Part shown: positions 7,771-56,179 of the stretch, piece after piece
Layout: every line of letters starts with the position of its first letter
Position numbering within the stretch: position 1 is the first letter of the stretch
Virus record (IMG/VR): IMGVR_UViG_3300024999_000126
Location: 1-56,190 of that record
Length of the DNA stretch: 56,190 nt
Strand: one strand, 5' to 3'
Source of the DNA: a virus
Notes under the pieces: generated by a model
What the model was told of the DNA's origin: nothing
The model's database searches: none
What the model saw: only the letters and a program-made list of their open reading frames with translations
Position numbers and translations under genes: made by a program

Positions 7771-8232
7771 TTAGAATACTAGCATAGCTCTTACGTCGTT
7801 TAGCCTTCTATGTACTGTAGCTTGAGATGTTTTCATCCTAGTTGCACATTCATGCTGAGACAAACCTTTTAAACGAAGCTGAACTAATAGCTTTTCATCA
7901 GCTGACAACTTTTTAATGACCTTTTTGTACTCTACTCTGAACTCAACTTCACTAAAACCATTCAACCTCGCAGCTTCACTTATACTTATGTCACATGGAA
8001 TAGGCTGCCTAATTTCTTTATTGAACATTCTCTTAAGCCTATTCATGATAACTTGTGTTGCATAAGCTGCAAATCTCCCTTTGTCAACGTCATACTCGTT
8101 AGCAGCTATCACTAATCCCAAAAAAGCCTCTTGTTCCCTATCTTGCCTATTAAGAGTTTGAAATTTAGATGATAAAGATTTTGCTAGTGGCATGTAATTG
8201 ACAATTAAAGCTTCTTTTAACGAATGATTCAA
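7771..8232 (-). CDS. RNA polymerase sigma-70-like factor
   Basis: This 153-residue protein contains a region-2-like N-terminus ('YMPLAKSLSSKF', 'DREQEAFLGLVIAANEYDVDKG', 'FAAYATQVIMNRLKR'), a short linker, and a region-4-like C-terminal helix-turn-helix ('LSQHECATRMKTSQATVHRRL'). This is the minimal two-domain layout of small alternative sigma factors. The start is TTG with an AAGGAG seven bases upstream. It is a natural candidate to recognise one of the two non-host-like promoter classes in this genome. Confidence 0.85.
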   Translation of the reverse strand: MNHSLKEALIVNYMPLAKSLSSKFQTLNRQDREQEAFLGLVIAANEYDVDKGRFAAYATQVIMNRLKRMFNKEIRQPIPCDISISEAARLNGFSEVEFRVEYKKVIKKLSADEKLLVQLRLKGLSQHECATRMKTSQATVHRRLNDVRAMLVF

Positions 8233-8276
8233 CTCAATGCTCCTTAAGATAGTGCTTGCTTAAATGTCAAAAAAAT

Positions 8277-8325
8277 AAAGGTACGCCAAGCTAAATTGGG
8301 GGAACCAAACGCTCAGCGTACCTTT
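8277..8325. terminator. Long hairpin, likely transcription terminator
   Basis: Ten-base perfect arms AAAGGTACGC / GCGTACCTTT are separated by 29 bases, with A/T-rich flanks on both sides. It lies between the acidic protein gene (8372) and the sigma gene. The loop contains GGGGGAACC, the same string that ends class I leaders, here on the plus strand. Confidence 0.6.
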
Positions 8326-8371
8326 AATTACATCAAATTTATGTAGCAATTTCTTACAAGAGACTTAGAAT

Positions 8372-8788
8372 CTAGTCATCCTCATCTTCATCATCTAGCA
8401 AGTCATCCAAGTCATCCAAGTCGTCGTCATCCTCGTCTTCGTCTTCTTCATCTTTCTTGGATTTCTTCTTAGTAGCCTTTTTATCTTCTTTCTTCTTGTC
8501 TTTCTTCTTGCTCTTCTTAGCCGGCTTCTCTTCCTTCTTTGCTTTCTTTGCTTTCTTTGGTTTTTCCTCTTCTACCTCATCATCGTCGTCTACATCAACG
8601 TTTTTGTGACCATCACGTATGATTCTTTCGATTTGACGAGCCGAAATGTGCTGAGGAACAGAGTTAATTATCTCTTCCGGAGTGGCTGTCGCAAAAAGCG
8701 GAAACCTTCCCCCAATATCAGCTCTGTCCTCTTTACTTCCGCTTTTGAGAGCTTCAAAAGCTTCGCCAACTGTCCATCTTTTTGCCAT
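8372..8788 (-). CDS. Lys/Asp-rich low-complexity protein with small N-terminal domain
   Basis: This 138-residue protein starts 'MAKRWTVGEA'. AGGAGG sits directly against an earlier ATG, so the second ATG at 8788 is better spaced. Residues 1-65 form a small folded domain. From about 70 it is a Lys-rich block, then a long Asp/Glu tail ending 'DDEDEDD'. Such charge-segregated tails occur in DNA mimics and SSB-like proteins; here the role is unknown. It follows the structured RNA locus and could share its transcript. Confidence 0.75.
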   Translation of the reverse strand: MAKRWTVGEAFEALKSGSKEDRADIGGRFPLFATATPEEIINSVPQHISARQIERIIRDGHKNVDVDDDDEVEEEKPKKAKKAKKEEKPAKKSKKKDKKKEDKKATKKKSKKDEEDEDEDDDDLDDLDDLLDDEDEDD

Positions 8789-8853
8789 TTTCTTCATCCT
8801 CCTAGTAGTTGTTTTCTTACATAACTTTTTACTTTTTATCCCCCATTTTTAAA

Positions 8854-8887
8854 TTGTCAAAGAGCATGCTTGCGATTTCTATCTTTG
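8854..8887 (-). repeat. Promoter-like repeat, downstream copy
   Basis: On the minus strand it reads CAAAGATAGAAAT, 12 bases, then CTTTGACAA. The same two blocks recur with similar spacing at 9233-9265. TTGACA here could serve as a -35 for the gene at 8788, though no clear -10 is seen. Confidence 0.65.
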
Positions 8888-9204
8888 TATTGCTCCAACT
8901 CTAGGGATTGAACCTAGCAAGGACTGCGCGCACAGTTCTTCGAGCACCTCAAGAGAATAAATCTCTTCCACTCAGTTGGAATATTGGTCTTTTACAAGTT
9001 TCCACCGTGATTAGCGCTGTTATCAAGCTCGCTCGCCGGAGAGATTCCGTATTTACTGATTTTACAGCGCCACGGCTGGCATCCGGTCTGCACAGTGCTC
9101 ATCCTGCCAGTTTGTTCGCTATCTCATTTAAGAGGACCAATACGCCCGTTAGAGCTATGGCAACTATTCACTATTAAAACTTTCCAATGAGTTGCGCGTC
9201 TTGT
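8881..9204 (-). ncRNA. Structured non-coding RNA with tRNA-like 3' end
   Basis: No minus-strand gene fits this 0.5-kb gap (8798-9308), yet it is GC-richer than its surroundings and dense in complementary segments. These include TATTGGTC (9135-9142) with GACCAATA (8982-8989), CTCATTGGAA (9182-9191) with TTCCAACTGAG (8971-8981), a CTGGCA/TGCCAG hairpin, and a CCGTG-GCGCTGT / ACAGCGC-CACGG stem. The 3' 87 bases mimic a tRNA: a 7-bp acceptor TCCAACT/AGTTGGA directly abuts a perfect T arm CTAGG-TTCAATC-CCTAG (8901-8917), but no D arm can be drawn. A promoter lies just upstream at 9211-9239. Transcript ends are estimates. Confidence 0.6.
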
Positions 9205-9210
9205 TTTCCG

Positions 9211-9239
9211 TCTAAACTCAGTTTATGTTTCCTTGTCAA
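9211..9239 (-). promoter_or_regulatory. Sigma-70-like promoter for the structured RNA
   Basis: TTGACA (9234-9239), a 17-base spacer and TTTAGA (9211-9216). It sits at the end of the conserved CAAAGATAGAAAT...CTTTGACAA repeat, pointing into the RNA locus. Confidence 0.65.
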
Positions 9240-9265
9240 AGACCAATTTGATATTTCTATCTTTG
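9233..9265 (-). repeat. Promoter-like repeat, upstream copy
   Basis: CAAAGATAGAAAT and CTTTGACAA blocks are shared with 8854-8887. The two copies bracket the structured RNA. Between the blocks the sequences differ, so the blocks themselves look functional. Confidence 0.7.
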
Positions 9266-9308
9266 CTTTACCCTTCCCCCGTCTAAAGAAGAAGGATACT
9301 GCCTAGAC

Positions 9309-9530
9309 TTACCTAACTTCTACAATAGAACCTTCTTTGACGCACATTTCGTAATCATCTATATACTCAATACAACTTTCAATTTGATAATCTTCTATTT
9401 GCCACCATTGACGATGAGTAGTTACTTCTGGTTTGAGATTGAGCTTACATGGGCTTTTCAATCCTAACCTACATTGCTTACAAAGTCTGTGTTCACCCGT
9501 AAACTTTAATTCTCCTGGATGCTTGCTCAT
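9309..9530 (-). CDS. Hypothetical Cys-containing protein
   Basis: This 73-residue protein has 'CKQCRLGLKSPC' near the N-terminus and two further Cys. The Cys spacing resembles the mini-proteins at 3.4-4.8 kb. It has its own class I promoter and GGGGGAACC leader. The function is unknown. Confidence 0.7.
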   Translation of the reverse strand: MSKHPGELKFTGEHRLCKQCRLGLKSPCKLNLKPEVTTHRQWWQIEDYQIESCIEYIDDYEMCVKEGSIVEVR

Positions 9531-9571
9531 CTTTGGTTCCCCCTCAAAATCGCGTTTTACCTTATGATACG

Positions 9572-9600
9572 ATAATAATGGGACTTACTTTGCTTGTACA
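9572..9600 (-). promoter_or_regulatory. Class I phage promoter
   Basis: TGTACA (9595-9600), a 17-base spacer and TATTAT (9572-9577), then AAGGTAAA and GGGGGAACC ahead of the ATG at 9530. Confidence 0.85.
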
Positions 9601-9655
9601 TACTTTTTTTAAAAATTTTTTGGAAGCCCTCAGATGTCATTTAAGCATATTTGTT

Positions 9656-9937
9656 TTAATCAATGATGATATTATCCCCAAGTTCTTGTTCGTTCATCTC
9701 GGGTTCACTCATTGTTTCTGTAAGTGACCTCCTGGCCATAACCAAAGTATCGATGATATTGTCTAACCCTTTAGCATCAACTACAATAGCATTTTTGATA
9801 AAGAACTCTGTTTTAACGCCATCAATAGTAACTTCAGCTTTTTGAGCTATTGATACCATACCATTATATTTTTGACTAACGACAAGCTGCTTATCACCCG
9901 TTATTTTACATGCAGCTAAATGACTAAACTTGTTCAA
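9656..9937 (-). CDS. Hypothetical protein
   Basis: This 93-residue protein has alternating hydrophobic beta-like stretches in the first half, a helix, then an acidic tail ('SEPEMNEQELGDN'). It overlaps the upstream gene by 14 bases. No family is recognised. Confidence 0.6.
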   Translation of the reverse strand: MNKFSHLAACKITGDKQLVVSQKYNGMVSIAQKAEVTIDGVKTEFFIKNAIVVDAKGLDNIIDTLVMARRSLTETMSEPEMNEQELGDNIIID

Positions 9938-10106
9938 TTTTTACTCCTTCTTTTTGTAGTATCTCAAATACCTTCTCATAGACCATTGCTTTATGAGTTT
10001 TAATCATATCAGCATTTACTATGCCTTTACCTTCTTCGAATTTTGCTATTTCACTTGATGCTTTACTAATTACAGCTATAACTTTTTTACATACACATTT
10101 ACTCAT
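9924..10106 (-). CDS. Hypothetical small protein
   Basis: This 60-residue helical protein starts 'MSKCVCKKV'. I chose the ATG at 10106 because AGAGGTAG is correctly spaced for it but touches the earlier ATG. It overlaps both neighbours, indicating coupled translation. The function is unknown. Confidence 0.55.
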   Translation of the reverse strand: MSKCVCKKVIAVISKASSEIAKFEEGKGIVNADMIKTHKAMVYEKVFEILQKEGVKIEQV

Positions 10107-10434
10107 CAGTATCATCTACCTCTATCTTAAGAACGAATACCAAGTTTACCAATCCTTCAAGATTGCTTGTAAGGTCGTCAATAATCTCGTCTGATTCAAA
10201 TACTACTTTACACTCCCCATCTCTATCAAACCGAAGTCCATGGATTTTTGCACCATCCATTACTGAAATCTCTTCACCTGCAAAATCAATATCTACTATA
10301 CAATCAGACCCTATCATCATTCCTAGTCTAAGCGTTTTCTTAAGCTCAGTGTGAGACGCTTTAAATGTTATCTTCGAAAATCCTTTTCTATCAACGTTGT
10401 GACCCTCGAAACTTGCTTCAAATTTACTCTTCAT
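10099..10434 (-). CDS. Hypothetical protein
   Basis: This 111-residue beta-rich protein opens 'MKSKFEASFEGHNVDRKGFSK', with regular alternation of charged and hydrophobic residues and an acidic C-terminus. The pattern resembles small phage proteins of unknown role encoded near recombination genes. No motif is identified. Confidence 0.6.
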   Translation of the reverse strand: MKSKFEASFEGHNVDRKGFSKITFKASHTELKKTLRLGMMIGSDCIVDIDFAGEEISVMDGAKIHGLRFDRDGECKVVFESDEIIDDLTSNLEGLVNLVFVLKIEVDDTDE

Positions 10435-11032
10435 TTGCGTACACCTCTTTCAATCCATTTATTAGTGTTTGCTTTGGATTAGCTCTAATCTCTGATTCCC
10501 AGAGAAATATTATTTTATAACCATGGCAATTTGCATAATTTTTGAGTAACTTATCTCGTTCAACGCTATCAGGAAGATTATGCCAATAATCTCCATTACA
10601 TTCGATAATAAGTTTTTTATGTGGAATATAAATATCTACAAACCAGAAACCTATTGGTTCTTGAGTTAAGTATTTAACACTATATTTATCAAGAACATCT
10701 CTTATCATAAACTCTATTGAAGAAATTGTAACCATCTTAGAAGCTTGCTGACCAGCTTTAATCCACTTATCTAAGTGTTTTAATTTATCTTCTTTAGACA
10801 TTTTAGAAAATCTTTCTTTAGTAATAACCCCTTGTTTCAAACATGCTTCTTTTGAGCGTTTTCTGCCCCTTAACTTCGTGCTAATTCTTTCCCTTAAGCA
10901 CTTATCTTCCATTGCAATTTTCATAGATTCACTTATTTTCTTTTTGTGTTCTTCACTCAACTTTCTTCCTCTGCGTCTTTGACCTATTTTAGTATTATGT
11001 TCTTCTGTTCTCTGATATACGCCAGATGTCAC
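10424..11032 (-). CDS. Homing endonuclease (NUMOD3 repeats plus Vsr/DUF559-like nuclease)
   Basis: This 202-residue free-standing endonuclease starts with GTG directly after the upstream stop. The N-terminus 'SGVYQRTEEHN' and the repeats 'GRKLSEEHKKKISES' are NUMOD3-type DNA-binding modules. The C-terminal ~95 residues contain 'KKLIIECNGDYWHNLPD' and 'GYKIIFLWESEIRANP', the Vsr/DUF559-like PD-(D/E)XK nuclease core. It probably promotes its own spread by cutting DNA lacking the insertion. Its C-terminal coding sequence is nearly identical over ~110 bases to that of the gene at 17110-17799. Confidence 0.88.
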   Translation of the reverse strand: MTSGVYQRTEEHNTKIGQRRRGRKLSEEHKKKISESMKIAMEDKCLRERISTKLRGRKRSKEACLKQGVITKERFSKMSKEDKLKHLDKWIKAGQQASKMVTISSIEFMIRDVLDKYSVKYLTQEPIGFWFVDIYIPHKKLIIECNGDYWHNLPDSVERDKLLKNYANCHGYKIIFLWESEIRANPKQTLINGLKEVYANEE

Positions 11033-17109: not shown

Positions 17110-17799
17110 CTAAACCACCCCCTTTAGTCCATATATTAGAGCTCTTTTTGGATTTTCTCTAATACTAGACTCCCAAAGAAACACTGTTTTATATCCATTT
17201 TCTCTAGCATATCTTTTTAACCGTTTGTCTCTTTTCTTTCTTTCAGGAAGATTATGCCAATAATCTCCATTACACTCAATAATAAGTTTTTTATGTGGAA
17301 TATAAATATCTACAAACCAGAAGCCTATTAGTTCTTGAGTTACATATTTAATACCAACTTCATCCAAAATGTCTCGTATCATTAACTCAATTGACGATAC
17401 AGAATAACTATTTTTGCATGATGCAATCATTGCTGGCTTCATGTGACTTGCTCTTTCACTTTTTGTCATTTTAGCAAATCTTGCAGAATTTGCTTTACTT
17501 ATCTTTTTACCAAAACCATCTGGCTTTTTTACTCCCCTACTAGCCTCTATAGCTTTAAAAGTTATAGCTTTTCTCTTTTCTGCAGACAAACTCTTATAAT
17601 ATTTTTTTATCCCTTCTTTGTTTCTACTACTTAAAGGCTTCCCTTTTCTTGCCTCACTCATCTTTCTCTTTGATTCTTCTGAAAAAACACGACCCTTCAT
17701 TTTTTCAGATAAAATAATATACCAACATTCAGGACAACAATATTTCAATCCCTTTCTTTTAACTTTATTATTACAACTTTCTCTTTGACAAATTTCCAT
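17110..17799 (-). CDS. Homing endonuclease (zinc finger, NUMOD3, Vsr/DUF559-like nuclease)
   Basis: This protein of about 229 residues starts 'MEICQRESC'. The N-terminal C-x4-C...C-x3-C zinc finger ('CQRESC', 'CCPEC') is followed by NUMOD3-like 'GRVFSEESKRKMSEARKGK' and a C-terminal nuclease core 'KKLIIECNGDYWHNLPE' / 'GYKTVFLWESSI'. I place the start at 17799, after the ThyA-family stop at 17810. A longer frame overlaps that gene. It is inserted between the ThyA-family and polymerase genes, common homes for such elements, and it is a close paralogue of 10424-11032. Confidence 0.87.
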   Translation of the reverse strand: MEICQRESCNNKVKRKGLKYCCPECWYIILSEKMKGRVFSEESKRKMSEARKGKPLSSRNKEGIKKYYKSLSAEKRKAITFKAIEASRGVKKPDGFGKKISKANSARFAKMTKSERASHMKPAMIASCKNSYSVSSIELMIRDILDEVGIKYVTQELIGFWFVDIYIPHKKLIIECNGDYWHNLPERKKRDKRLKRYARENGYKTVFLWESSIRENPKRALIYGLKGVV

Positions 17800-17809
17800 A
17801 TCAACCCAA

Positions 17810-18718
17810 TTAGACAAGATTATCACTCCAATGTTGAACATAAGGTCTAGCCCAAGCAGAGTTTCTAACATTAGCTACAAAATACTTAAGACCACTAGAG
17901 TGGTAATTATGCTCTTTCATTAACAAGCCACCAAATGGGTCAAACTTGGCAAGCATAGCATAGCTAAAATCACTATTGTCTACCATCTTTTGATAAAGAT
18001 TTGCCAATAAGAAAGCATCGTCTAGAGTATAGGATACTGAGAAATTAACAGGACGAATATCTTTAATCAACCTCAATGTTTCCCAATCTTTTTCATATAC
18101 ATGCATGCTAGTAGCAGTATGATAATATTTCCCTATATTGAGATTAAGCTCATTAGCGATTACTTCTTGAACAAAAGTGAAGATAAAAACATCATATAGC
18201 AATTTGCCAATAAAATCATTAGACCTCATATACACGTGACATTCTAGCTTTCCATTACGAACAAGAAGATTTATTGTGTTAATACATGGAAAGTTTTTTG
18301 TCTTAACAACACTATCTCTATTTGTTAAAATAGGAATAGACGCTTGTCTTGTCGTAACGTCTTGCCTTATTTTGTCAACAACATCATTGATAAAAGGGGT
18401 GACTCTTGCTCCATAAGCTCCATAAAGTGAAACTCCATCATCAGAAAAATATTGCCAATCTTCATTTAGCCACTTGTAATATTTAAGTTCTGAAGTAGGA
18501 GAAAACATTAAAACAGATTCACCAATTGCTTGAATTAAATCAAAGTTAATAACTGAAGGGAGAATTAACCTTGATTGAGGATTCCTAATGCAAAATGAAA
18601 AATTTGTAAGCTCTCTTACCCTTGTATCTTGAGAAGATACTATTGGAGCTTCTCTTAAAGCGTCTTTCCCTAGTAAAACTATTTCCGCTAAAGTGTTAGC
18701 TGTTATCGAATATGACAT
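17810..18718 (-). CDS. Thymidylate-synthase-fold enzyme, candidate dCMP (hydroxy)methylase
   Basis: This 302-residue ThyA-family protein has 'YGAYGAR' near residue 99, the catalytic Cys in 'KNFPCINTINLLV' near 149, 'CHVYMRSNDFIGKLLYD' near 163-180, and 'TATSMHVYEKDWE' near 210. The active-site Cys and the phosphate-binding Arg-Ser are kept. The position of E. coli ThyA Asn177, which selects dUMP, is Asp here, as in T4-type dCMP hydroxymethylases. So dCMP is the likelier substrate. This is inference from one aligned residue. The phage also has ThyX for dTMP. It is driven by the class II promoter at 18754-18783. Confidence 0.85.
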   Translation of the reverse strand: MSYSITANTLAEIVLLGKDALREAPIVSSQDTRVRELTNFSFCIRNPQSRLILPSVINFDLIQAIGESVLMFSPTSELKYYKWLNEDWQYFSDDGVSLYGAYGARVTPFINDVVDKIRQDVTTRQASIPILTNRDSVVKTKNFPCINTINLLVRNGKLECHVYMRSNDFIGKLLYDVFIFTFVQEVIANELNLNIGKYYHTATSMHVYEKDWETLRLIKDIRPVNFSVSYTLDDAFLLANLYQKMVDNSDFSYAMLAKFDPFGGLLMKEHNYHSSGLKYFVANVRNSAWARPYVQHWSDNLV

Positions 18719-24556: not shown

Positions 24557-24604
24557 ATACTTTTAATAAATTTTTAAATATTTTGACATTAAAAATGGGA
24601 CCCC

Positions 24605-24685
24605 CAGCTACCTCTCAGATGAACCTTTAGCTAAGTCTAATATATTTCCATATCGACCTATCTAACGTTTATCTGAGGGTCACTG
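24605..24685 (-). repeat. 81-nt CAG...CTG inverted-repeat element (copy d)
   Basis: Outer arms CAGTGACC / GGTAGCTG and inner arms CTCAGAT / ATCTGAG pair around an AT-rich centre containing AAATATATTAG. The length equals copies at 44361 and 51641. It lies between the small gene at 24713 and the class II promoter of the primase. Confidence 0.7.
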
Positions 24686-24712
24686 AGAACCCCAAGATTA
24701 AAGCAGCCCTTT

Positions 24713-24880
24713 TTACTTAAATATTCGCCGTTTGCGTTGTTTGCAGTAAAAGTCTTTCTCTTTTTCAGTAAGAGTATTGTCTACCATATGTTGCTCGTCA
24801 TTACAATCATCACAATCATTACAAGTGCACCGATATTGTTTTGCAAGTATTTTTAAAAATCGCTTAGCGTTGTCTTGCAT
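24713..24880 (-). CDS. Small Cys/Asp-rich protein from a class I promoter
   Basis: This 55-residue protein has 'CTCNDCDDC', a dense Cys cluster that could bind metal, then a basic tail 'CKQRKRRIFK'. It has its own class I promoter and a leader ending GGGGGAAC. The function is unknown. Confidence 0.65.
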   Translation of the reverse strand: MQDNAKRFLKILAKQYRCTCNDCDDCNDEQHMVDNTLTEKEKDFYCKQRKRRIFK

Positions 24881-45939: not shown

Positions 45940-46503
45940 CTAAAACTTTGGTCGTCTAAATAACGCTAATATTGCTGCTACTTGTCGAGGAACAGCTATT
46001 CCTTCTAAATTAACAGAAGAATCTCCTGCTTTTTCTGAAAGCACTCTAGGGTCTCTGTGATAATAAGTATCTGAAGCCCACAGTTTAACCGCTCTCTTAA
46101 GCGAAGGAAGAATCCTTGTTAAATAGTTGTACTCAATATCCATACCGCCAGTATAAGTAACTTCATACTTATTAGTTCCTGTTCCCCACTCAGAGTCATG
46201 AGTAAGTATGCCTAAAATATAATCAATTTTGTAGTCATACGAACTTACTACTATCTCATTAACGCTGTCATAAACCTCAAAATCAGCTTCTTCATCGATG
46301 GGATAATGTGATAAAAATAACTTAGTTCTATTCCCTTGAGCAGTTTGTTTCTCTACTAGTTCTTCAGAAACAACATTTCGCTTTAGAATTAACGAGAGCA
46401 ACCCTTCTATTTCCTCAAGAATTTCAACCAAAGTAGAGTCTTCGTCAGAATGCTCAATCCTTAAATATCGCTTAAATTCTGCTAGACCCAAGATATTTGC
46501 CAT
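45940..46503 (-). CDS. Head-tail connector protein (gp6/gp8-like)
   Basis: This 187-residue protein has 'LAEFKRYLRIEHSDEDSTLVEILEEIEGLLS', matching the N-terminal helix pair of phiE125 gp8/HK97 gp6-type connectors. 'YEVTYTGGMD', 'PSLKRAVKLWASDTYYHRD' and 'GIAVPRQVAAILALFRR' follow. It forms the ring below the portal. It directly follows a glycosyltransferase gene, overlapping it by one base. Confidence 0.85.
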   Translation of the reverse strand: MANILGLAEFKRYLRIEHSDEDSTLVEILEEIEGLLSLILKRNVVSEELVEKQTAQGNRTKLFLSHYPIDEEADFEVYDSVNEIVVSSYDYKIDYILGILTHDSEWGTGTNKYEVTYTGGMDIEYNYLTRILPSLKRAVKLWASDTYYHRDPRVLSEKAGDSSVNLEGIAVPRQVAAILALFRRPKF

Positions 46504-47945
46504 TATTCTTCTCCCTCAACTCTTTTCTTGAGCTCTTCTATCGACATATCAGCTGGCTTACTTTCGCCCTCTCTAACAAACGGCATTTCTTGCCCTTTTG
46601 GCTCTTCCTTTTTTGCTTCTTTTCGTTCCTTCATTTCCTTCTTAATAGCATCACATACGGCTTTTTCATCCGTCATTTGCTCTTCTGTAAGATGCTTGCT
46701 CAAGTCTATCTCTTTCTTGCCAACAATAACTATGAGTTCTTCAAGGCTTAAGCTATTTAAACTCTTCTTTTTAGGCTTTGTTTTTGGCTTACTCAAAGCG
46801 TCTTCTTTAGTGATAACAGTTTCTGCTTTAAGCTCTTTAACTAATCCCAACCTTATAGCTTCTACCATTGGAAGCCTTCTGTTCCTCCCGTATAATAGCC
46901 TACCAGTTACCGGGTCAATAACTCTCTTTTTAGTAACAAACCACTTTGACTCAGACATGCTGATTAACTCCCTCCTAAGTTTAACTTTAATTGCTCTATC
47001 TATTAGCTCATCAAACAAAGGTTTATCGCTATCAATTGTTTCTAGCAATCTCATATCCTCTGTTATAATGGGTAGTTTATCTTTAAGGCTTTTTAAATAC
47101 TCCACTTCAAAGCTTTCAGCTACTATCCCCCATTTCCCTTCGTACATTTTTCTCGTGTTACCAGGATTAACTCCAATTACTGGAATGCCAGCAGCTAAAT
47201 AATCCCATGTTTTATTCTGCCTTCCAGTTTGAGTATAGTCAAATGATGCCTTTGGCACATCTTCTTTGTTATATCCCTGAATCCCTGCAGTGTACTGACT
47301 TAAATCAACTAGGAGTTCGTTATAGGGTAATGGGTTATGACAAATACAACCTATCTCGATGTATTCTGGATAACAGCTTGTCGAATTGTGAGAATAAATA
47401 TGAACATTCCATCCTGCTGCTATAAAGGACTTAAAGATATTTCTAAAAGACCTATATCCATACAATCCATTTCTTCTACTCCAGAAGTTAATCCCTCCTG
47501 CATAAACCAAATTTAGTCCCTCTAGCTTAGGCTTTAATTCAAAGCTTATATCTTTCTTAAGCGGTCTCAAATGAATCACTTTTGAGAGAGGAACTTTATA
47601 ACCTAAGCTAGTAAAATAGTCTAAGTGGTCTTCAGTTACAAATACTAAACCAGCTGCATTCTCAACCATCTCTTTTTCAAAAGGATGTTGTTTACCCTGC
47701 CTCATTGAATAAATATCGCTTGCTATTAAGATGTAGGGAATACCTAGAGATAAGGGAATACGATAATGGTCTGCCGAATCACCTCGTACAAATACTAAAT
47801 CTGGTTTATACTTGGCTAATCGTAAAGCAACATTGTCTTCGTTAGTATTTATTATCAATCCACCGTACGTCTCTTGCAAGAACGTGTAGTACTTGTAAAC
47901 GCTGCCAACCATCATTTTTAAGTTGTGAATATATGCTAGTTTCAT
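46503..47945 (-). CDS. Glycosyltransferase fused to plectin-like repeat and charged structural tail
   Basis: This 480-residue protein is a GT-B-type transferase up to about 320, with 'LVYAGGINFWSRRN', 'GRQNKTWDYLAAGIPVIGVNPG' and the donor-site acidic end 'YEGKWGIVAES'. Then comes '[20 protein letters not shown]' with 'EAIRLGLV' near 338-370, a unit resembling plectin repeats and shared with the neighbouring glycosyltransferase. A Lys/Glu-rich tail with 'SLEELIVIVGKKEIDLSKHLTEEQ' is like small virion proteins encoded after capsid genes. The fusion hints that it acts on, or is built into, the particle. Confidence 0.78.
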   Translation of the reverse strand: MKLAYIHNLKMMVGSVYKYYTFLQETYGGLIINTNEDNVALRLAKYKPDLVFVRGDSADHYRIPLSLGIPYILIASDIYSMRQGKQHPFEKEMVENAAGLVFVTEDHLDYFTSLGYKVPLSKVIHLRPLKKDISFELKPKLEGLNLVYAGGINFWSRRNGLYGYRSFRNIFKSFIAAGWNVHIYSHNSTSCYPEYIEIGCICHNPLPYNELLVDLSQYTAGIQGYNKEDVPKASFDYTQTGRQNKTWDYLAAGIPVIGVNPGNTRKMYEGKWGIVAESFEVEYLKSLKDKLPIITEDMRLLETIDSDKPLFDELIDRAIKVKLRRELISMSESKWFVTKKRVIDPVTGRLLYGRNRRLPMVEAIRLGLVKELKAETVITKEDALSKPKTKPKKKSLNSLSLEELIVIVGKKEIDLSKHLTEEQMTDEKAVCDAIKKEMKERKEAKKEEPKGQEMPFVREGESKPADMSIEELKKRVEGEE

Positions 47946-49780
47946 TTCTTCACTAATCCCAGCCTAATTGCTTCAGTCATTGGCATTCTTCTATTGCGTC
48001 CGTACAACAACCGCCCATCTGGTCCGACTACTCTCTTTCTTGTTACGTACCATAAATCGTCTTGAGGAAAAACTTGCTCAACTTGCTTTTTATCTTTAAC
48101 TCCTAACTTAGCTAAATCTTGAACCGAAACAACAGCTCCCCTTCCGTAAAGCAACCTTCCCGTTGAAGGGTCTACAACTTTTTCTTTAAGCTTTACGAAA
48201 TCATTATCTTCTTTACAAACAACTTTACTAGCTACATTGGGAACGTATCCAGCATCTATTATCTCTAAGTACTTCTTAGCAACCGAACTTAAGTCGTGAT
48301 ATTTAAGTACGTAGTTCTTCACTCTAGTTGCTTCATCTTTATAGTACACTGGGTCGTCAATTAACTGTTTTATAGTATTTTCTAAAGTAACGGCATTTAC
48401 GTAAGTATAGGGTATTTGTCCTAACCATTCCAGATACTGCTTAGCTACGTATTCGTCACCAGCTAAAACAGGTAACCCCATACAAGCACCCTCAAGACCT
48501 GACACTTGCAATCCCAACCAAAAACTATCGAATACAGCATCACACGTAGCTTTTATTTGCATTGCCTCTACATGTGTTTTTCTCTCTATTAAAACAGCTT
48601 CAACAGAATATCCTTTACGTTTTAAGTTTGATACAGCAGTTAAGAATAATTCAGTTCCCTTAAAAGCTCTATTTGTAGGAGAATGAGCTATTCTAAACTT
48701 CTTTCCTGCAACCCTACCTTTAGTCATTAAGCTATATTTTTTAAAAGGGACAGGATTTGGGAGGAACTGTAAATTGTTTGAATACCTCGTTAGTTCAAGA
48801 TTTGAAACCAACCTAATGCAACTCTGAGCATTATCATCGATATTATGCCTACCAATAAGCTTCCTAAAAAGAGAACCGTGATGATGAACTACTTTTGTTG
48901 CTCCCCGCTTTACTACTCCAGCTTGAGGTATTACTTGAGCTCTTAAATGCGCGTGAACTACATCTGCATCTCTCAAATGTTTCCTAAGCATGCTTTTATC
49001 ACGCATTGGATACTGATATGGATAATCAAACTCAGTATTCTTATTCCTAAAGTATGCAGATTCGTGTAACGTGTACCCATCAATTGCTTGGTGTAAATTC
49101 CAAGCAACACAAGCTAAATCTCTACCGGCAAGAAAAACTATCTTCTTTGGTTGAACTTTCTTTAGCCTCTTTATGCCTTCTTTATTATTTTGAACTACTC
49201 CATACTGTTGCTTTTGTTTCATTCGTTCATCGGTACGACCATCATTTCTTCTATGGTCCAACATTAAAGGAACAGATACTGATATTTGACCAATACCTGT
49301 TTCTTGGTGTGAAGCTACTAAATCTCCCTTTGAATCATAAATCCAATGATGACGTCCTGCATAATGCAGTCCTTTATCATAAGCAAATAATCTTGGCTCT
49401 TTATAGATTCCCTTGTATAGAGGACTTTTTATTGCTACCCAACCAACATCGAAACTACCAAGACTTTTAAGCACTTCAGGATTTTCAACGTATTCATCGG
49501 CATCAACAATAAAGAAGATGTCTCCCTGTTTCCCATGCTTAAAGTATTCTGACCTTTTAATGCATTGGTCTTCCCAAAATGTTTCAGTTGTGATTAACTT
49601 TACTTTACCTAATGATTCTAGATATTGAATACTACCATCTGTAGAATAGGGTTTATCAACTGGAAACCCATCGTATGCCCCATCGATTGCCACTATTTTA
49701 TCTACATAATCATAATACGTGGGGACACTCTGCTTTAACGCGCTTACATCATTAAAAAAATTAAGGCACGCTATTAGCAT
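47942..49780 (-). CDS. Bifunctional glycosyltransferase (GT2-like plus GT4-like) with repeat tail
   Basis: This 612-residue protein has three parts. Residues 1-180 are GT-A/GT2-like with '[15 protein letters not shown]' and the metal-binding '[13 protein letters not shown]'. Residues 215-520 are a GT-B/GT4-like domain with 'VVHAHLRAQ', '[18 protein letters not shown]' and '[15 protein letters not shown]'. The C-terminal ~85 residues hold two plectin-like repeats ('[14 protein letters not shown]' and '[17 protein letters not shown]...EAIRLGLV'). It overlaps both neighbours. Likely targets are virion protein or modified DNA; I cannot tell which. Confidence 0.85.
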
Positions 49781-50171
49781 CTGAATTATTCCCCTTTATA
49801 TCTTTTATTATTTTTGCAGGAACGCCCCCAACTACTACGTTTGACGGAACGTCTTTTGTTACTACTGCACCTGCTGCTATGTATGAACCCTGACCAATTT
49901 CTTGAACTGATTCTAATATGATTGCACGAGCTCCAACAAAAGCATCTCGTCTTATAATCAAAGGAGATATTCTTATATTTCTAACATCTCCAGGGGGATG
50001 GTCGTGGGTTAGTATCATTACGTCTTCAGATAGCACTACATTATCTTCTAAAACTACATTAGCTGAAGTATCTATCGAAGAACCCCTACCAGTAGCAACG
50101 TTTTCTCCAATGAACAATTTTCCCTTACCTAAGTGATGCCTATCTATCATCTCATGTTTTAATCCCATCAT
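49761..50171 (-). CDS. Hexapeptide-repeat O-acetyltransferase
   Basis: This 136-residue left-handed beta-helix protein has '[24 protein letters not shown]', the catalytic His region '[10 protein letters not shown]' and the closing '[23 protein letters not shown]', the signature of maltose/serine-type acetyltransferases. It probably O-acetylates a sugar laid down by the flanking glycosyltransferases. It overlaps the genes on both sides. Confidence 0.9.
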
Positions 50172-51076
50172 CCCATAAACCTTTCATAAATTCCTACAGC
50201 TTTTTTAGCTACAACAGGATAATCATGATAATTTTCTACGTACTGTCTACCAAGCCTTGCATATTTCAAAAAGTGTTCTCTATCAACAAGTAGTCGTATT
50301 AGTTCTTGTTTAACAGTTTCTCGACTTGTCCTTACATAAGGAGCATACCCTACTATCTCAATTATTCGTTTATGAGTATCATCTGGCAAACCAACTAAAA
50401 CTGGCTGTCTCAGTGCCATCCCTTCAAGACCAGAGTTACCATACTGTAAATGTAACTGGTCAAAAGCAATATCACACCGAGCTTTCATCGCCAAGCATTC
50501 TAAATATGAAGTCTTCTCTATAAGAACTAATTCAACGGGATAACCCTCTCTTTTTAGTTCATTGACAGCCAATACCAGGGCATCTGTACCCTTATAATCA
50601 CGCCTTGTAGGAGAATGTGCAATTCTAAGAATATCATCATCGACGTGATACCTCTTCCTCAATTCATCAAACTTTGCTACGTTTATTGGAGTAGGAAACC
50701 ATCTGTCTTCTTCATCAGGAACGTTATATCCCAATAAATTGATAGTAGATACTACTTGAAAAGCCGTTTCTCTATTGTATATTTTTGAATTATCTTTTTG
50801 CCTACCGTGGTAATGAAAAATCTTTATAGCATCTTTATTGGGTTTCCAGCAGCTGGCATAAGTGAGGTTATTATGAATATGTGCAATATCAAGTTTACCT
50901 AGAAACTCTCTTATGCTTATCGGTACTTCAGGATACTGAAATTCACGAGGAAAGTCTAAATAATCGTTCTTAGTTCTAAAAGCATGAGCATCACAACTAG
51001 AATAAAGACGTAACATTTCAGCACATTTAAACGTTTGACCTCCAGTATCGGGTCCACAAAAATGAGCTATCCGCAT
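50168..51076 (-). CDS. GT4-like glycosyltransferase
   Basis: This 302-residue protein starts '[14 protein letters not shown]'. The ATG at 51076 follows the upstream stop by one base, so a longer frame is not used. 'HIHNNLTYA', '[17 protein letters not shown]', '[15 protein letters not shown]' and '[17 protein letters not shown]' match the GT4-like half of the 47942-49780 protein, so the two are paralogues. It has no plectin-like tail. It starts the sugar cassette. Confidence 0.85.
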
Positions 51077-51077
51077 G

Positions 51078-51425
51078 TCACATCGTATTCCCATCAGAAT
51101 CCAGCTTATACACCCCATTGCAATGACCACAGAGAAACACTTTGAATCTATCATCAGCGGTCGTTATATCAGTATCTGGCTCATACATAGCTTTTAGTGT
51201 GTTGTATATCTGCCTACCAATCTCTTGTGTTAAGGGAATAGCATCTATCATTACAATGCCCTCTCCCTCAACAACAATTGGTTTAGTTAACAACACGTCA
51301 AGCTTACATTCTGGAGCTGACTTCATATCTTGAGTAAACTCAATACTTCTAACCCCTGTTATTTCATTACCACCAATAAAGATTTTTGTATCCCCTGGCT
51401 TTGCATCAATTTTAAAACTTGCCAT
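51078..51425 (-). CDS. Hypothetical protein upstream of the sugar cassette
   Basis: This 115-residue protein has beta-rich N-terminal half ('GDTKIFIGGNEITGVRSIEF') and a C-terminal 'CGHCNGVY' pair. The first half resembles small phage virion decoration domains in pattern only. It is translationally coupled to the glycosyltransferase that follows. Confidence 0.6.
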   Translation of the reverse strand: MASFKIDAKPGDTKIFIGGNEITGVRSIEFTQDMKSAPECKLDVLLTKPIVVEGEGIVMIDAIPLTQEIGRQIYNTLKAMYEPDTDITTADDRFKVFLCGHCNGVYKLDSDGNTM

Positions 51426-54328: not shown

Positions 54329-55132
54329 CTAAAACTTTATACCTAAGCTACAACGACATCTAGGATGAAGAGGGGGAGAATCAACGTCTTCATATCCATG
54401 GTTAAGCTTAAAAATACTGCCATCTTCTGCAGCTATCGTTTGAATGTCTCCCTCTTTAAAATAGCTTTCATTCTTCTTTACTACTTTATTATCCATACTA
54501 TTACAAAACAAACAAAGTCGCTCATCTTCAGTTGTAATCCAAACTGAGCTACCGCCTACCTCCTCATAACTAAATCGAGCCCCTCTATTCGTCGACCTTA
54601 TTATCTCAGTCCTAGCAACTATTTCTGCCCTGATAGTATTCCAACCATAAAATTCTTGTTCAAGAGCTTCTCTAACGAGGTTAACCATCCATCCTTCTTT
54701 TTCGCCCTTCTTTATGATAGTTTTTACTTTTTTAACAGAAGTATCGCCTATCTTCTTAGCAAACTTAAATTGATAATTTCTAATAAACTTAATAACTTCA
54801 GGATTAGCCATATCAAAATCTAGCCCTAATGCTTTTCCAGTTTCAACTGCTGATTGCATTAAAGGGTCACCTAGAGGAACTTTCCCTACAACTTCGTATC
54901 TGGCAAGACGTTTATTTATCTCTCCAAGCCTCTTATATAACCTATTCATTTCAGACTTAGATAGCTCTTTTATCTCAAAAGCATCCAAAGCTTTCCTATA
55001 TTCTTCAGCATATGTCTTTAACAATTTAGTAATACTTTTTTCTAGCTTTGGATAATAAGAATTTTGTACTCGTCTTAAAACCTTAACTAATTTAGGATTA
55101 AGCTTCTTAGAACTTATTTTCTTTTTAATCAT
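54329..55132 (-). CDS. MuF/SPP1 gp7-like minor head protein
   Basis: This 267-residue protein has a basic helical N-terminus and central helices. A C-terminal MuF domain shows 'IVARTEIIRSTNRGA', 'TTEDERLCLFCNSMDN' and 'PPLHPRCRCSLG', the Cys/His pattern of the family. It assists head assembly and may travel with the DNA. Its first ~75 codons are duplicated at window position 1-226, where the portal precedes it. Here three extra genes precede it instead. Confidence 0.9.
   Translation of the reverse strand: MIKKKISSKKLNPKLVKVLRRVQNSYYPKLEKSITKLLKTYAEEYRKALDAFEIKELSKSEMNRLYKRLGEINKRLARYEVVGKVPLGDPLMQSAVETGKALGLDFDMANPEVIKFIRNYQFKFAKKIGDTSVKKVKTIIKKGEKEGWMVNLVREALEQEFYGWNTIRAEIVARTEIIRSTNRGARFSYEEVGGSSVWITTEDERLCLFCNSMDNKVVKKNESYFKEGDIQTIAAEDGSIFKLNHGYEDVDSPPLHPRCRCSLGIKF
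54907..55110. repeat. 204-bp direct repeat, second copy (first at 1-204)
   Basis: Bases 54907-55110 match 1-204 at all but one position (128 of the first copy), a synonymous change in the MuF frame. Identity ends abruptly at codon 8-10 of the gene. The first copy ends at the window edge, so its full extent is unknown. Confidence 0.95.
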
Positions 55133-55309: not shown

Positions 55310-55571
55310 CAGAAGTCTTCGCTGTAATCTCTTTTCCACTACTTGAGTTAACAATGCCTAAACACCTTCCATTTGCATCTAAGTGTAAATCCATAGACTT
55401 GCAGCCATATCTACCAAAAGCTATCTCTATATTCCATTTACAATCCATATTATCGCAAGTTAGAGATACTTTTCCTAGCTTACACCCTCCGCCCTCTAAT
55501 CGATGAGGGCATTTCTTTGCCTGGCAAACCAACCTTCCATCAACATTTACCGGCTTACAAAATTCCCCCAC
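55263..55571 (-). CDS. Cys-rich hypothetical protein
   Basis: This 102-residue protein has eight Cys in the first ~70 residues ('CQAKKCPHR', 'CDNMDCKW', 'CKSMDLHLD', 'GRCLG'), consistent with one or two zinc-binding knuckles. It overlaps the methyltransferase stop by one base. It is part of the three-gene block inserted ahead of MuF. Confidence 0.62.
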   Translation of the reverse strand: MGEFCKPVNVDGRLVCQAKKCPHRLEGGGCKLGKVSLTCDNMDCKWNIEIAFGRYGCKSMDLHLDANGRCLGIVNSSSGKEITAKTSGALIKPQRAGSIRNS

Positions 55572-56179
55572 TATATTTTCCTTCCAATAACAACAATTAT
55601 TAAATGTTTCTCACCATAAGAGTCATATTCTTCTTCATCAAGCGTATAAAAATCTTCTATCTCATAATTATTTGATTTTAACAAATCAATAAAACTATCA
55701 ACCGTAATATACTCTTCTATCTCGCCGCCAATATGCTCAGTATTACCGTAAATGTACAACATCAACAGCCCATTTGCTTTTAAAACTCTAGCAATCTCAG
55801 GTATCGACTTACTTAAATCAGAAGAGTGTAACACTGACAAACTAAATACTGCATCAAAAGACTCATTATCAAAAGAAAGTTCTTCAGCATTCGCTTCTAA
55901 AACTTCAACTTTTACATCTGCATTTTCAATATTTTCTTTTGCTAGCTTTATAGCACTAGGAGAAACATCTATTGCAACTACATCTAAGCCCGCGTTAGCA
56001 AAGAAAATAGAATCCCTTCCATTACCGCAGCCTATTTCAAGAACTTTTGGTTTTATTTCATCATCAATCTCACTCAATATCTTTTCTGCAAACTGTTGAG
56101 CAAATCTTGATGGGTCCATATCTAATGCCCAATGAGGAGTACCATTAGCATAAGCTCTTTCCCAATCTTCCGGTGACAT
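55571..56179 (-). CDS. Class I SAM-dependent methyltransferase
   Basis: This 202-residue protein has motif I 'VLEIGCGNGRDSIFFA' near 47, 'VVAIDVSPSAIKLAK' near 70 and 'FDAVFSLSVLHSS' near 110, the Rossmann methyltransferase landmarks in the order of small-molecule (TehB/UbiE-like) enzymes. No DNA-methylase motif (NPPY) is seen. The ATG at 56179 lacks a clear ribosome binding site in the 11 bases available. If the ends of the window join, the truncated MuF frame would enter this gene in frame via four codons. Confidence 0.85.
   Translation of the reverse strand: MSPEDWERAYANGTPHWALDMDPSRFAQQFAEKILSEIDDEIKPKVLEIGCGNGRDSIFFANAGLDVVAIDVSPSAIKLAKENIENADVKVEVLEANAEELSFDNESFDAVFSLSVLHSSDLSKSIPEIARVLKANGLLMLYIYGNTEHIGGEIEEYITVDSFIDLLKSNNYEIEDFYTLDEEEYDSYGEKHLIIVVIGRKI

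Follow-up and report, generated by a model that had tools for sequence, protein, structure and literature searches.

What is encoded in a stretch of a phage genome that carries no gene on the strand from which all of its neighbors are read? The window analyzed here is an entire IMG/VR virus record (IMGVR_UViG_3300024999_000126, 56,190 bases), and between positions 8798 and 9308 it contains no minus-strand open reading frame (ORF) of at least 40 aa, while all genes near this gap, on both sides, lie on the minus strand (leftward). The gap is also richer in GC (0.45-0.47) than the DNA around it (0.31-0.42). An earlier note, made from the sequence alone, had remarked on both features and placed there, at 8881-9204, a structured RNA with a tRNA-like 3' end and two mutually exclusive pairings. 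Here, we report that the minus strand of the gap probably encodes a folded RNA of ∼357 bases with a tRNA-shaped end, a structure inferred from one sequence, and that the proposed switch is lost once the RNA is given its full length.

Genomic context of the gap

The window contains genes typical of a tailed phage, including terminase, portal, tape measure, DnaE-type polymerase and RecA-like protein, along with a primase, a ThyX-like protein and a small sigma factor; several of these names were assigned by reading the proteins. Relatives of the terminase are found in Marinitoga and Thermoanaerobacterium phages and in Aneurinibacillus and Thermoflavimicrobium genomes, pointing to a host that is probably a member of the Bacillota or a similar bacterium. 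By reading, the structural block also includes several genes related to sugars (46503-51154, minus strand), of glycosyltransferase-like and acetyltransferase-like types. Two putative homing endonucleases, at 10424-11032 and 17110-17871 (minus strand), are paralogous, with 77% identity over 282 nt of DNA, and the former has a DUF559/Vsr-like end. An identical 204-bp repeat is located near the ends of the record, at 1-204 and 54907-55110, after which the ends differ; a likely reading is that the genome is a circle of 54.9 kb and that the record also includes an alternative branch, with a methyltransferase-like ORF at 55571-56179.

Features in and around the gap are listed in Table 1. The 73-aa ORF upstream has no Pfam match and no relative in IMG/VR, and a simple scan of 8000-10600 detected no minus-strand terminator-like site. 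No protein-coding signature is detected in the RNA interval, translated seeds of which found no homologues. A plus-strand protein of 90 codons at 8905-9177 was considered and rejected, as it has no family and no relative.

Table 1. Coordinates of features in and around the candidate RNA element
Feature	Position	Strand	Remarks
Promoter-like site TGTACA-17-TATTAT	9572-9600	-	Could drive the unit; conserved in L003
73-aa ORF	9309-9530	-	Upstream of RNA; L003 has an unrelated 55-aa ORF in its place
Direct repeat, upstream copy (DR1)	9233-9269	-	35 of 38 positions identical in blastn between L002 and the window
Candidate RNA, full extent (357 nt)	8891-9247	-	Closing helix and cloverleaf both predicted when folded together
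Closing helix P1, 5' strand	9232-9247	-	Overlaps boxA-like motif TGGTCTTTGACAAGGAA (9245-9229)
GC-rich inner helices	9005-9075	-	Predicted CCGTG/CACGG (9075-9071 with 9009-9005), adjoining GCGCTGT/ACAGCGC (9070-9064 with 9020-9014)
Closing helix P1, 3' strand	8983-8998	-	Predicted to pair with 9247-9232
tRNA-like domain, 90 nt	8891-8980	-	MFE and centroid folds the same, -29.1 kcal/mol, z -1.6
5' acceptor strand TCCAACT	8974-8980	-	Predicted to pair with 8900-8894; p 0.88-1.0 in fold of 8885-9250
T arm CTAGG-TTCAATC-CCTAG	8901-8917	-	Carries tRNA T-loop consensus GTTCRANYC
Direct repeat, downstream copy (DR2)	8850-8888	-	L002/L003 has a single copy
boxA-type motif TGCTCTTTGACAATTTA	8850-8866	-	16/17 to rRNA boxA probe; L003 copy identical
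141-aa lysine/acid-rich protein gene	8372-8797	-	Downstream of RNA; 97% aa identity in L002

A predicted tRNA-like module at the 3' end

Just as had been noticed, a 7-bp acceptor formed by TCCAACT (8980-8974) and AGTTGGA (8900-8894) directly abuts the 5-bp T arm (8917-8901) on the minus strand. No second combination of this kind occurs in the window. Across ∼1.5 Mb of DNA from related phages, the majority of the other T arm and acceptor combinations are at tRNA spacing. The predicted domain consists, in order, of the acceptor, a GAGT/GCTC arm with an inner hairpin, a long arm and the T arm. The remark that a D arm is missing was roughly right, its place being taken by the 4-bp GAGT/GCTC stem that encloses the hairpin. 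Neither a D arm, an anticodon arm nor a 3' CCA is present in the predicted fold of 8891-8980; the 3' end is GCA rather than CCA, within a sequence that ends GCAATAC. The proposed check with ARAGORN returned no tRNA genes, and the tRNA model RF00005 had no match in the record at E <= 10. The closest comparison is with class II tRNAs, those with a long variable arm, with which the module shares the 7-bp acceptor, the 5-bp T arm and the T loop TTCAATC; its distance from the acceptor start to G53, 67 nt, is also close to the 61-63 nt of the class II tRNAs that we found. However, it lacks a tRNA-type D stem, a clear anticodon arm and CCA. At two other sites (L027 9199 and L028 5889, +), a tRNA-like T arm is matched by a 7-bp acceptor partner lying 49 nt ahead of G53, and ARAGORN makes no call; these are possibly tRNAs with a reduced D arm.

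The boundaries of the candidate RNA and the supposed switch

Upstream of the tRNA-like module, a repeat search detected a 16-nt inverted repeat, 15/16 complementary (9247-9232 with 8998-8983), which we refer to as P1. It would close a domain of 265 nt and stops 2 nt short of the tRNA-like acceptor strand. Most P1 pairs have probabilities of 0.9-1.0 in folds of 8885-9250 or longer, and in folds that start from 9250 or beyond P1 and the acceptor are predicted together at high probability. In minus-strand folds that cover their stretch, the inner helices appear in both the MFE and the centroid structure. The interval first assigned to the RNA, 8881-9204, was therefore too short, because it leaves out the 5' arm of P1; the predicted structure extends to 9247. 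This omission accounts for the switch. In the truncated fold of 8881-9204 the acceptor has a probability of only ∼0.01 and a rival partner at 9155-9148 has ∼0.8, whereas in the full-length fold the acceptor reaches 0.87-1.0 and the rival falls to 0.00 once the fold starts at 9250 or beyond. The strand that the earlier note had named as the competitor, 9191-9182, is mostly taken up by a local hairpin, and this is so in the truncated fold as well. A switch between two pairings is therefore rejected as an artefact of truncation, while a structured RNA with a tRNA-like 3' end survives as the best reading of what had been offered as a new tRNA-like RNA.

Chance and folding energy

Markov sequence that matches the window in dinucleotide content (40 Mb) gives an expectation of 0.007 per window for a T arm joined to a 7-bp acceptor if G-U pairs are allowed, and in it the Watson-Crick-only form did not occur at all. 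Shuffling the dinucleotides of the upstream 400 bases never placed a closing arm within 5 bases of its position by the acceptor (0/3000). Inverted repeats of P1 quality within 400 nt amount to four entries across the whole window, two of which are one hairpin, compared with 0-1 in Markov sequences. These tests were designed after the pattern had been seen, so that their raw numbers overstate the significance. We consider it unlikely that chance alone brought T arm, acceptor and P1 together.

Folding energies are modest, with z-scores of -1.6 for the tRNA-like part, -2.2 for the 265-nt domain and -1.85 for both (357 nt), and in a minus-strand folding scan most 110-nt windows across the element have z near 0. 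However, 18 ARAGORN tRNAs from the fetched loci, scored alike, span z from 0 to -3.1, and therefore energy neither supports nor refutes an RNA of tRNA size. Elsewhere in the window, at 24590-24720 (minus strand), a strong branched hairpin of ∼110 nt (z ∼-5) has a 55-aa ORF on one side and a T-rich tract on the other. It has no credible Rfam match and could be a large terminator or another RNA.

Searches for families and homologues

Membership of the GOLLD or ROOL families had been suggested. Both are, like the candidate, large structured RNAs known from phages, but they are much longer than 357 nt, and the Rfam check returned no family at gathering score; at E <= 10 only spurious snoRNA models match the RNA region. 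The tmRNA model RF00023 gave no match at E <= 10, and ARAGORN called no tmRNA. With neither Rfam nor ARAGORN giving a match, tRNA, tmRNA and other Rfam RNAs were rejected as the identity of the element. A tmRNA does share with it a tRNA-like 3' end with little D arm, joined to a larger structured RNA; the difference is that here the 5' acceptor strand adjoins the 3' module, whereas the RNA as a whole begins elsewhere.

No homologue of the element was found by blastn in phages and plasmids or at the loci of terminase and polymerase relatives, and exact and degenerate patterns yielded no credible homologue in IMG/VR and GTDB genomes. The single IMG/VR match to the core stem (L120) was rejected as a chance match inside a gene. 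A covariance model (R1), run without a positive control against 1.3 Mb of related phage DNA and 398 Bacillota genomes, found only itself credibly. Of the findings that the earlier note had said would refute the RNA, a protein-coding signature is absent; as for the other, no transcript together with no structural conservation in relatives, the searches yielded no conserved structure, and the close relative described below has no RNA. The 21-nt T-arm/acceptor sequence is absent from GTDB species genomes, and on this ground an attachment site copied from the end of a host tRNA was rejected for the hosts sampled there; it is disfavored also because copying the 3' end of a tRNA would leave the matching 5' acceptor strand behind.

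Direct repeats and a relative without the RNA

Only one close relative was found (IMGVR_UViG_3300025030_001675, L002/L003). It is ∼96% identical over both flanks and does not contain the RNA element. In the window the RNA is flanked by a repeat of ∼37 bp, and the two copies, DR1 and DR2, bound what the relative lacks. The single copy in the relative resembles DR1 in its left part and DR2 in its right part, as might be left by recombination between repeats or by cassette insertion. The RNA cassette thus looks like an accessory one, either gained or lost between two boxA repeats. At one place these nearly identical phages have exchanged unrelated small ORFs (9309-9530, minus strand, versus L003 1561-1728, plus strand).

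The downstream repeat contains the boxA-type motif, which agrees at 16 of 17 letters with the E. coli rrn boxA used as probe; the next-best match in the window is 14/17. The gamma-proteobacterial boxA core is GYTCTTTAANA (PMC5725501), from which GCTCTTTGACA at 8865 deviates at one position (A to G), in a consensus that may not be that of the host. Nine rrn leaders of one Bacillota genome have TTGA at the deviating position (TGTTCCTTGAAAACTRA). DR1 carries a weaker, boxA-like copy, which makes up most of the 5' strand of P1. The downstream motif, conserved in the relative (L003 1818-1834, plus strand), ends 53 nt before the ATG (8797) of the 141-aa gene in the window, an arrangement that makes Nus-factor control of this phage gene possible. 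In E. coli, suhB is an established case of a protein gene under boxA control (PMC5725501), and the E. coli rRNA operon has one boxA set at its start and one before 23S (PMC10250234). Some 500 genome searches, over two overlapping samples of Bacillota and Bacillota_A, gave two matches to the exact TGCTCTTTGACAATTTA pattern, both in Bacillota_A (L108, L109). In each it lies ∼1500 bases into the minus strand and ∼200-400 nt ahead of a possible gene start; no rRNA was found beside either match. Rfam detected no rRNA in the window.

Interpretation

We tentatively favor, as the best explanation, an accessory structured RNA that is embedded in the operon, carries a tRNA-like module and is flanked by boxA-type repeats. 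Arguing for this are the rare T arm, acceptor and P1, their joint folding, a high GC content in an AT-rich phage, and boxA; arguing against it are the missing homologues and with them any covariation, a folding energy close to that of shuffled sequence, a relative that lives without the RNA, the lack of CCA and of a standard D arm, and an upstream boxA-like copy that is weak and inside the closing helix. The RNA would sit between two small genes of the leftward operon, be transcribed from 9600-9572, and consist of two modules, a 265-nt domain closed by the 16-bp helix followed by the 90-nt tRNA-like cloverleaf. Host tRNA enzymes would recognize the latter, with a cut by RNase P at 8981/8980 and trimming of the 3' end, and this processing would free the upstream folded domain from the operon transcript and stabilize it; the tRNA-like 3' domain thus probably acts as a signal for processing and stability. 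At either end, Nus factors would be loaded by the boxA-type repeats, so that polymerase could pass the untranslated structured stretch, as in rRNA operons. We infer these steps, transcription, processing and antitermination alike, and with them any benefit to the phage.

Among the alternatives, a purely cis-acting leader of the 141-aa gene, with boxA repeats that recruit Nus factors and a fold that is a passive or attenuating spacer, seems to us rather unlikely. The position of the downstream boxA copy, its retention with the gene in the relative and the suhB precedent agree with it, but the tRNA-like cloverleaf has no obvious part in such a leader, and the relative has boxA and gene without the RNA, so the RNA is unnecessary for boxA control of the gene. 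Less likely again is a decayed phage tRNA gene, a functionless relic that has lost its D arm and CCA beside an unrelated leader. Phage tRNAs come and go between relatives, and absence from the relative fits such an origin, as do the canonical T arm and the acceptor TCC...GGA followed by G. However, a perfect 7-bp acceptor and 5-bp T arm would be unexpected had the rest decayed, the adjoining 16-bp helix is left unexplained, and the 21-nt T-arm/acceptor sequence occurs in no species genome searched. Distinctly unlikely is incidental pairing in foreign GC-rich DNA, noticed because many patterns were inspected, for although the overall z is only -1.5 to -1.9, no homologue is found and the relative lacks the element, the T arm, acceptor and adjoining closing helix are jointly rare and real tRNAs cover the same z range.

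The favored accessory RNA resembles known systems in layout. MALAT1 with mascRNA is a long non-coding domain followed by a tRNA-like 3' module that is cut by RNase P, the same layout as here, but it is eukaryotic and has no sequence relation, so the analogy concerns layout only. Pre-rRNA leaders and spacers, with boxA, a leader-trailer helix, a spacer tRNA and a second boxA, match the order seen here of a boxA-like element, a large domain closed end to end, a tRNA-like part and boxA. They differ in that there is no rRNA here and in where the first boxA lies: ahead of the helix in pre-16S, but within it in the candidate RNA. The likeness to an rRNA operon is an analogy only. It would be a long shot to propose a new class of accessory phage RNAs built like a miniature rRNA operon, with boxA ends, a closed domain, an enzyme-recruiting tRNA-like module and the form of a removable cassette.

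The main gain from this analysis is that the limits of the RNA have been corrected and the proposed switch removed. What emerges from the modeled fold is a credible and well-bounded RNA candidate, previously unclassified and belonging to no known family by the tests made. Should transcription and processing take place, the end of a larger folded phage RNA would be set by a tRNA mimic, and a phage might be using rRNA-type boxA signals for a non-coding RNA of its own.
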